Shown one piece after another: positions 26,953-28,669 of a DNA stretch of 39,799 bases (within the stretch, counting starts at the first letter, position 1; each line of letters begins with the position of its first letter). The translations under genes and the position numbers were made by a program. This DNA is from Comamonadaceae bacterium (GTDB lineage: Bacteria > Pseudomonadota > Gammaproteobacteria > Burkholderiales > Burkholderiaceae_C): the NCBI GenBank assembly GCA_021298995.1, contig JAJTGB010000007.1, positions 1-39,799 on the forward strand, written 5' to 3'. The notes beneath the pieces were generated by a model, which saw nothing but the letters and a program-made list of their open reading frames with translations, searched no databases and was not told the origin of the DNA.

Positions 26953-28131
26953 ATGGAATCCCGTAAAGCTTGGGTGGTTGTCTGGGCAACCTTTGTGTGT
27001 TTGGCGGTCATCTTTGGCGTGTCTTATTCTTTTGCAGCATTTTTTGAAAGTTTTGCCGAGGAATTCTCTGCGCAAAGAGCGGATGTGTCCTGGATCTTCG
27101 GGCTTTGTGGGTTGGTGTACTTTGTATTGGGTGCCCTTGGCGGCATGTTGGCCGATCGATGGGGGCCACGACTTGTTTGCATGGTCGGCATGGGCTTCAT
27201 GGCACTTGGCCTGTTTTTAACCAGCCTGGCCCAAAATTTAAGCACCGTGTATTTGAGCTACGGCCTGCTGGTAGGTCTTGGTATTGCCTTTGTTTACACG
27301 CCTTCCATTGCTTCGGTTCAGCCGTGGTTCACCAAGCGACGTGGCTTGGCCTCTGGCATTGCCAGTTCGGGTGTGGGTGCCGGCACGCTGATATTGCCAG
27401 TGCTTGTCAGCTACTTGCTTGGCTCTGTAGATTGGCGAAGTGCGCTGCAAATGATGGCTTTGGGTGTGCTCATGCTGGGTTTGACGGCCTCATTTTTGTT
27501 AGAAAGAGCGCCGTCTATCCCAGGTCAGCAAGGCGGCCAACTCTCCGGTTTAACCTTGCCCGAGGCTTTGAAAACAGCTTCTTTTCGTTGGCTTTATGTT
27601 GGCACCTTGTTGGGAGCGCCAGTCATGTTCATCCCATTCGCACACATCTCGGCAGCCGCCAGAGATGCAGGTGTGGCTGACGCACAGGCTGTGGGTTTGG
27701 TGGGTTTGATTGGGATCGGCAGTTTGGTGGGCCGATTTGCCATCGGCTGGCTAGCCGATCGCTTGGGCAGGGTTAAAACACTCATGCTCATGCAGTGCCT
27801 CATGGGCATGTCTTATTTGGTATGGGCTGGCGCTCAAGAGTGGTGGATTTTTGCCCTTTTTGCGCTTTGGTTCGGGCTTAGTTACGGCAGCATCGTTTCA
27901 CTGCTTCCTGCTATCTGCATGGATTTGTTTGGGGGTCGAGCTGTCTCGGCCGTCATTGGCACGCTTTACACCGGTGCCGCCTTGGGCAATTTGCTGGGTC
28001 CAGTTTTGGCCGGTCAAGTATTTGATGTCACTCAAAGTTACGTTCTTGTGATTTGGATCACGCTGGGTATTTCGGCTCTGGCCACTTACAGTTGCTGGCG
28101 CATTTTGAAGTACCCCAAACTTTTTGAATAA
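26953..28131 (+). CDS. MFS transporter (monocarboxylate/OFA-like)
   Basis: 12-TM pattern; GVSYSFAAFFESFAEEFSAQRADVSWIFGLCGLVYFVLGALGGMLADRWGPR; SVQPWFTKRRGLASGIASSGVGAG. Confidence 0.92.
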   Translation: MESRKAWVVVWATFVCLAVIFGVSYSFAAFFESFAEEFSAQRADVSWIFGLCGLVYFVLGALGGMLADRWGPRLVCMVGMGFMALGLFLTSLAQNLSTVYLSYGLLVGLGIAFVYTPSIASVQPWFTKRRGLASGIASSGVGAGTLILPVLVSYLLGSVDWRSALQMMALGVLMLGLTASFLLERAPSIPGQQGGQLSGLTLPEALKTASFRWLYVGTLLGAPVMFIPFAHISAAARDAGVADAQAVGLVGLIGIGSLVGRFAIGWLADRLGRVKTLMLMQCLMGMSYLVWAGAQEWWIFALFALWFGLSYGSIVSLLPAICMDLFGGRAVSAVIGTLYTGAALGNLLGPVLAGQVFDVTQSYVLVIWITLGISALATYSCWRILKYPKLFE

Positions 28132-28164: not shown

Positions 28165-28239
28165 TTGTTTATAAACCTATTGTTAAAAAACTAAGGGTTG
28201 CTAAACTAATTGTTTATTAACTTAATGTTATTCAACTAG
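28165..28239. repeat. Five tandem 15-bp iteron-like units, each containing GTT-N4-AAC
   Basis: Units at 28165 TTGTTTATAAACCTA, 28180 TTGTTAAAAAACTAA, 28195 GGGTTGCTAAACTAA, 28210 TTGTTTATTAACTTA, 28225 ATGTTATTCAACTAG; GTT at 28167, 28182, 28197, 28212, 28227. Confidence 0.85.
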
Positions 28240-28246
28240 ACTAAAA

Positions 28247-28630
28247 ATGAACAAGATCATCTTGCGAGCCATTACGGCCTTTTCCAGAACAGATCTCAAA
28301 AGCAGCGAAGGTCAGTTGTCGATCCAAGGCAGGGAGATTCATTACCTTGGCAAAGACTATGTGGCACTGGAGACTGAGTCTGCTCAAGAGTTATTGGCGC
28401 TTTACCGTTGCATGAACCGAGGCGAGCTGAAGCGCTTGAAGAGGTGGCCAGCAGAATTAACCAGCAAGATGCCAGATCCCTCAACTAAAAATTTGGCAAA
28501 AAATATTCAAAAGACACCTGCGATATTGGAGTTGTCGCCAGTTAAAAAAGACGGAAAAGTAGAGAAAGCCAAAAAGTCATCTAGCCGAGCTTCTACAACA
28601 CCTGCCAATCAAACAGACCTGTTTGAGTAG
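28247..28630 (+). CDS. Conserved-looking hypothetical protein, folded N-terminus plus basic disordered tail
   Basis: 127 aa ORF MNKIILRAITAFSRTDLKSSEGQLSIQGREIHYLGKDYVALETESAQELLALYRCMNRGELKRLKRWPAEL..., followed by a terminator. No obvious Shine-Dalgarno at this ATG. Confidence 0.72.
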   Translation: MNKIILRAITAFSRTDLKSSEGQLSIQGREIHYLGKDYVALETESAQELLALYRCMNRGELKRLKRWPAELTSKMPDPSTKNLAKNIQKTPAILELSPVKKDGKVEKAKKSSSRASTTPANQTDLFE

Positions 28631-28639
28631 CCAAAAAGA

Positions 28640-28669
28640 AAAAGCCGCATCGTGAAGGATGCGGCTTTT
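28640..28669 (+). terminator. Bidirectional terminator between the 127-aa gene and convergent icd
   Basis: AAAAGCCGCATC-gtgaag-GATGCGGCTTTT. Confidence 0.88.

Follow-up and report, generated by a model that had tools for sequence, protein, structure and literature searches.

MetJ and other ribbon-helix-helix repressors bind as cooperative dimers to short tandem palindromic boxes at the promoters of their regulons, the Met boxes being 8 bp long and contiguous. KfrA of plasmid RA3 acts at an operator of five 9-bp repeats that overlaps its own promoter, with repression depending on how many repeats are present as well as on oligomerization of the protein (PMC7783346). For Apl of phage 186, cooperative binding needs at least three sites, and the protein represses nearby promoters (PMC7498355).

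Here we describe a regular array of five GTT-N4-AAC dyads in a 39,799-nucleotide stretch of DNA from a Comamonadaceae bacterium (hereafter the window, meaning the whole stretch that was analyzed), situated upstream of an uncharacterized gene for a 127-aa protein. Our preferred explanation, to which we assign a probability of roughly 0.6, is a cooperative multi-site operator that lies over a probably leaderless promoter and is bound by the 127-aa protein. Such an operator would share with that of KfrA iterated sites that overlap the promoter from which the regulator itself is expressed. KfrA, however, recognizes 9-bp repeats in mixed orientation, whereas here 10-bp dyads recur every 15 bp, and it is a long alpha-helical helix-turn-helix protein, whereas the protein considered here is small, predicted to be helix-plus-sheet, and unrelated in sequence. 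As for Apl and other recombination directionality factors, the likeness lies in a small basic phage-type protein family and in arrays of sites; in contrast with the symmetric dyads 15 bp apart that we see, Apl uses direct repeats 10 to 11 bp apart, each taken by one monomer. The ribbon-helix-helix of MetJ likewise differs from the predicted fold at this locus, which is one helix followed by four strands. We found no literature on this genus together with such a motif.

A phased dyad array in front of an uncharacterized gene

The array occupies the gap between an MFS transporter gene and the 127-aa gene. The next gene after the latter, on the opposite strand, encodes a monomeric isocitrate dehydrogenase (icd). 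The features of the region are as follows.

26953-28131, + strand: MFS transporter gene, upstream of the array
28167..28176, no strand assigned: dyad unit 1, GTTTATAAAC, a perfect 10-bp palindrome
28182..28191, no strand assigned: dyad unit 2, GTTAAAAAAC, its bases identical in genome G001
28197..28206, no strand assigned: dyad unit 3, GTTGCTAAAC
28212..28221, no strand assigned: dyad unit 4, GTTTATTAAC, which would lie over the -35 region if the promoter sits as proposed
28227..28236, no strand assigned: dyad unit 5, GTTATTCAAC, directly 5′ of the -10-like hexamer
28237..28242, + strand: TAGACT, a -10-like hexamer conserved in position, part of the proposed leaderless promoter
28247..28630, + strand: 127-aa gene, its frame conserved in 23 genomes, encoding the proposed array-binding protein
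28640..28669, reported on the - strand: hairpin with a T run, between the convergent 127-aa gene and icd

The five dyads start at 28167, 28182, 28197, 28212, and 28227, a period of exactly 15 bp. The original prediction had recognized this period and placed each unit 2 bp too early, because its 15-mers open with the two bases that precede each G; the N4 tetramers that it listed and the palindrome in unit 1 were correct. Similarly, its distance of 7 bp between array and ATG is true for that 15-mer frame, while the last AAC itself ends 10 bp upstream of the ATG at 28247.

The array is genuine and not a chance arrangement. A two-unit pattern with at most one mismatch gives four matches in the window against 0.18 expected, and under a broad definition of phased dyads (any 3-base arm, gap of 0 to 8, period of 8 to 25) the GTT-N4-AAC array is the only one that the window holds. 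Chance or simple repeat slippage could draw some support from the base composition, with an AT content of 72% in the intergenic stretch versus 48% in the window. Yet runs of three or more units were absent from 60 dinucleotide shuffles of the whole window. When the AT-rich intergenic stretch by itself was shuffled 20,000 times, two units arose twice and three or more never. The shuffle check that had been suggested for this array thus never reproduced equal phasing, and as the orthologues retain the dyads while the spacers change, we attach next to no probability to chance or slippage.

Dyads and phase are conserved while spacers diverge

The 127-aa gene is present in 23 of the 91 genomes of the genus and in none of the other genomes of the order or class that were sampled. 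In the icd-flanking regions of four non-carriers, the gene is not found downstream of icd, and synteny there differs. All 23 carriers have a 15-bp-phased array of three to seven units upstream of the start codon. Some of the units in orthologues are degenerate, the register nonetheless being maintained, and the distance from the last AAC to the ATG is 10 to 11 bp in 22 of the 23 genomes (28 bp in genome G014).

A comparison of orthologues had been set beforehand, asking whether the phase and the GTT and AAC positions are lost while flanking sequence is kept. Dyads and phase turned out to be kept, with the changes falling in the spacers. Between genomes G000 and G001, none of 30 dyad bases but 18 of 40 spacer bases differ (p = 5e-6); between G095 and G101, the changes amount to 6/36 in dyads versus 31/49 in spacers (p = 2e-5). 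Dyads changed less than spacers in 11/11 pairs, significantly in seven of them and not significantly in four, the pairs being non-independent; the preferential conservation of dyads is strongest in the more divergent pairs.

Across 125 units, G1 and C10 are retained at 95 to 96% and the remaining dyad bases at 81 to 90%, while no spacer position exceeds 0.53 bits. Of 71 exact units, 36 have complementary bases at dyad positions 4 and 7 (23.7 expected), with the inner position 4 avoiding C and position 7 avoiding G. It is because of this avoidance and this tendency to complementarity that the alignments support a symmetric site, about GTT-D-N-N-H-AAC. The view of the array as a set of protein-binding sites of operator type, already advanced in the original prediction, agrees with conserved dyad bases and 15-bp phase next to diverging spacers; an assignment as a multi-site operator is well supported.

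A putative leaderless promoter

It had been noted earlier that the array leaves no space for a leader with a Shine-Dalgarno sequence. This fits with what we see in the orthologues: in 22 of 23, a hexamer reading TAGACT, TAGAGT, TATAGT, or similar follows the array 4 to 5 bp before the ATG, which would suit a leaderless promoter. In Burkholderia cenocepacia, a TA-rich motif directly precedes leaderless transcripts, and transcriptional regulators are enriched among them (PMC4603805). While a simple sigma-70 promoter scan called no + strand promoter here, we infer one, probably leaderless, from the conserved position of the hexamer together with the pattern in B. cenocepacia (PMC4603805).

In the scheme that we infer for the binder, its cooperativity, the leaderless start, and the sign of regulation, the 127-aa protein would bind the near-palindromic 10-bp sites every 15 bp as a dimer or a higher oligomer. 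Binding would be cooperative, such that three to seven weak sites behave as one switch; a cooperative filament on the array, as had been suggested, is plausible. The array would abut the promoter and probably cover its -35 and spacer region, with the -10-like hexamer right behind the last site and the transcript starting at or beside the ATG. Occupancy of the array would then set expression of the 127-aa gene and, in most carriers, the protein would also control a cupin gene via an identically placed second array. Autoregulation is probably negative, because occupied sites would block RNA polymerase. Positive autoregulation seems less likely to us, though conceivable because a good -35 element is absent.

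The location of arrays directly upstream of two start codons would also suit an action in RNA, as a repeated hairpin or a translation-control leader. However, the RNA folds no better than its shuffles (z = -1.15) and matched no Rfam family, the three-base stems are too weak, and stop codons as well as the -10-like hexamer point to DNA, leaving an RNA function highly improbable.

A second array at a cupin gene

The original prediction had asked whether the array co-occurs with the 127-aa gene or is found at many loci. A three-unit pattern with at most two mismatches, searched in the 91 genus genomes, recovers it together with the 127-aa gene and at one other locus. That is, among the matches listed, carriers show two loci per genome, the 127-aa gene and a small cupin gene, and non-carriers have either no match or a few that are GC-rich and unrelated. 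The cupin gene and an M20-type peptidase gene are divergently oriented, with a TctC gene near. Arrays at the cupin gene comprise three to five units and in most cases stop 11 bp short of its ATG, a placement like that at the 127-aa gene. The cupin array could in addition control the M20 peptidase gene, which lies 120 bp from it on the opposite side. In genome G000, this second array in the cupin-M20 peptidase divergent region is found at L020:1363-1552 (G000:C78).

A pan-bacterial scan with three units was, among the matches listed, dominated by chance and coding-repeat matches. Its matches in Burkholderiales include L069, L100, and L132, which are 127-aa or cupin loci in members of the genus, and L053, L058, and L116, which we set aside as unrelated repeats.

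The cupin array occurs in 20 of 21 scorable carriers versus 2 of 29 scorable non-carriers, an association with the 127-aa gene of Fisher p about 1e-10 when relatedness, which inflates such co-occurrence statistics, is ignored. The two non-carriers that have it, G093 and G111, are incomplete assemblies whose cupins are the same in sequence as the cupins of carriers G083 and G102; apart from these two, the sites are confined to genomes bearing the putative regulator. The most informative genome is G014, the sole scorable carrier without a cupin array, which the cupin tree places among non-carriers (97/99 support) and which encodes a homologue 39% identical to the 127-aa protein, with its own six-unit array upstream. 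Genomes G035 (99% complete) and G107 lie near carriers on the cupin tree and have neither the gene nor the arrays. Because G014 keeps gene and array together and G035 and G107 are without both, the simplest reading is that the 127-aa gene and its array form one module, with the cupin array probably added in one lineage.

In G014, the homologue and its array lie about 100 bp from a tRNA-Gly gene with tRNA-Cys near (L256:6805-7470, G014:C10), surroundings that are typical for mobile-element insertion.

This co-occurrence lends indirect support to the earlier suggestion that the 127-aa product regulates its own gene, and we lean toward the 127-aa protein as the predicted binder of the array. As co-occurrence among relatives is phylogenetically dependent, another co-inherited protein could be the binder, namely, a transcription factor inherited with the 127-aa gene whose two targets would be the 127-aa and cupin genes. 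Such a factor would account for there being two targets while the 127-aa protein is without a recognized DNA-binding domain and has a beta-clamp-like tail, a feature suggesting that it is not a transcription factor itself. We nevertheless consider a separate factor unlikely: we saw no genome in which a different gene carried the array instead of the 127-aa gene, the array of G014 lies only at the 127-aa homologue and at a different chromosomal place, and the pair G035 and G107 is devoid of gene and arrays alike.

Comparison with partition sites, iterons, and directionality factors

Several roles proposed at the outset do not agree with these distributions. Since the arrays are confined to a pair of ordinary promoters in each genome, and to genomes that have the 127-aa gene, neither a partition or centromere-like site nor a landing site for a general nucleoid protein is a good description, and an iteron is disfavored by a replication gene being near neither locus.

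Looking at known classes one at a time, a parS- or centromere-like partition site was rejected as no parA/parB-type genes adjoin the array, its neighbors being the MFS transporter and isocitrate dehydrogenase genes. Plasmid iterons were rejected with no rep gene near and no plasmid record encoding a relative of the 127-aa protein. A recombination directionality factor of the Xis/Apl type was rejected as well: the model consists of a helix and four strands without a helix-turn-helix or winged-helix match, no attachment site was identified, and no integrase is near at the window locus. Because membership fails in all three of these classes, we file the locus as a putative autoregulated multi-site operator, with at least three regular sites at the gene's own start, sites conserved over spacers, and sites restricted to carriers.

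An orphan domain and a candidate clamp-binding tail

The 127-aa protein is basic (pI 9.7), a point in favor of its being the binder, and has two parts of interest.

28247..28462, + strand: orphan domain of 70 to 72 aa (residues 1 to 72), also in short prophage and viral-contig proteins
28610..28624, + strand: Q122-T-D-L-F126, C-terminal, resembling the beta-clamp-binding motif QLxLF

Searches of the protein against Pfam, NCBIfam, PHROGs, PADLOC, and PDB sequences returned nothing significant, plasmid and phage records gave no relative (weak matches with E > 1), and Foldseek with two models against PDB and viral structures gave no match at E < 0.05. The AlphaFold model of the orphan domain shows one helix and four strands (pLDDT 82.7). 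The domain recurs in short proteins, encoded in prophages or islands within the same family and in 14 viral contigs. The short prophage homologues have no such array upstream, which, like the lack of a recognized DNA-binding fold, counts against the 127-aa protein as binder. Some prophage relatives are near integrases, and one has a separate AlpA-like gene. Terminase and portal genes, or again integrases, sometimes adjoin the domain relatives at L235-L240 and L241-L254.

After the domain come a basic linker of low conservation, the conserved stretch PAILELSP, and the C-terminal NQTDLFE, which is more conserved than the linker, with Q122 kept in 22/22 and F126 in 21/21 aligned rows. The homologue in genome G021 (L013:1501-1779) has lost about 35 linker residues, including PAILELSP, and kept both the domain and the C-terminal motif. 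Sliding-clamp-binding proteins have the consensus QLxLF (PMC4549789), from which the pattern across orthologues, Q-[TSA]-[DG]-[LM]-F, departs at the second position. The resemblance to clamp binders such as some transposases (PMC4549789) lies in a C-terminal Q-x-x-L-F after a poorly conserved linker; clamp binders have L at the second position, whereas T, S, or A is found here, and a catalytic domain is absent here. We treat NQTDLFE as a lead, a candidate beta-clamp-binding tail that would suit a role in replication or repair at least as well as one in transcription control.

Taken further, this lead would make the array a DNA-maintenance site, for partition, recombination, or replication control, with the 127-aa protein recruiting the sliding clamp or some other replication protein to it. 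Both arrays, however, sit 10 to 11 bp upstream of start codons, where a promoter operator would be expected, and the second locus, that of the cupin gene, is metabolic. On balance we find DNA maintenance very unlikely, even considering that the C-terminal Q-x-D-L-F outlasts the internal deletion in G021 and surpasses the preceding linker in conservation, and that domain relatives occur in prophages and islands, some of them adjoining integrases.

With the multi-site operator as the preferred reading, an orphan domain common to prophages and to the chromosomes of one genus becomes tied to a specific DNA target that can be tested. Should the array prove to be bound by the 127-aa protein, a family without annotation would gain a function, 15 bp (about 1.4 turns) would join the spacings known for cooperative operators, and freshwater Burkholderiales would have a two-gene regulon. 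With the clamp-like tail comes the question of whether a transcription switch might be tied to the replication machinery. In its boldest and, to us, improbable form, the 127-aa protein would found a new DNA-binding family, in which a phage-derived helix-plus-sheet domain acts cooperatively on 15-bp-phased 10-bp dyads and a clamp-docking tail couples the expression of both the 127-aa and the cupin genes to replication-fork passage.

For a comparison of clamp motifs within the same genome, DnaE was not found in the incomplete assembly that holds the window (163 contigs, about 79% complete). Hda is present in this genome and has the N-terminal sequence MKQMALDI.
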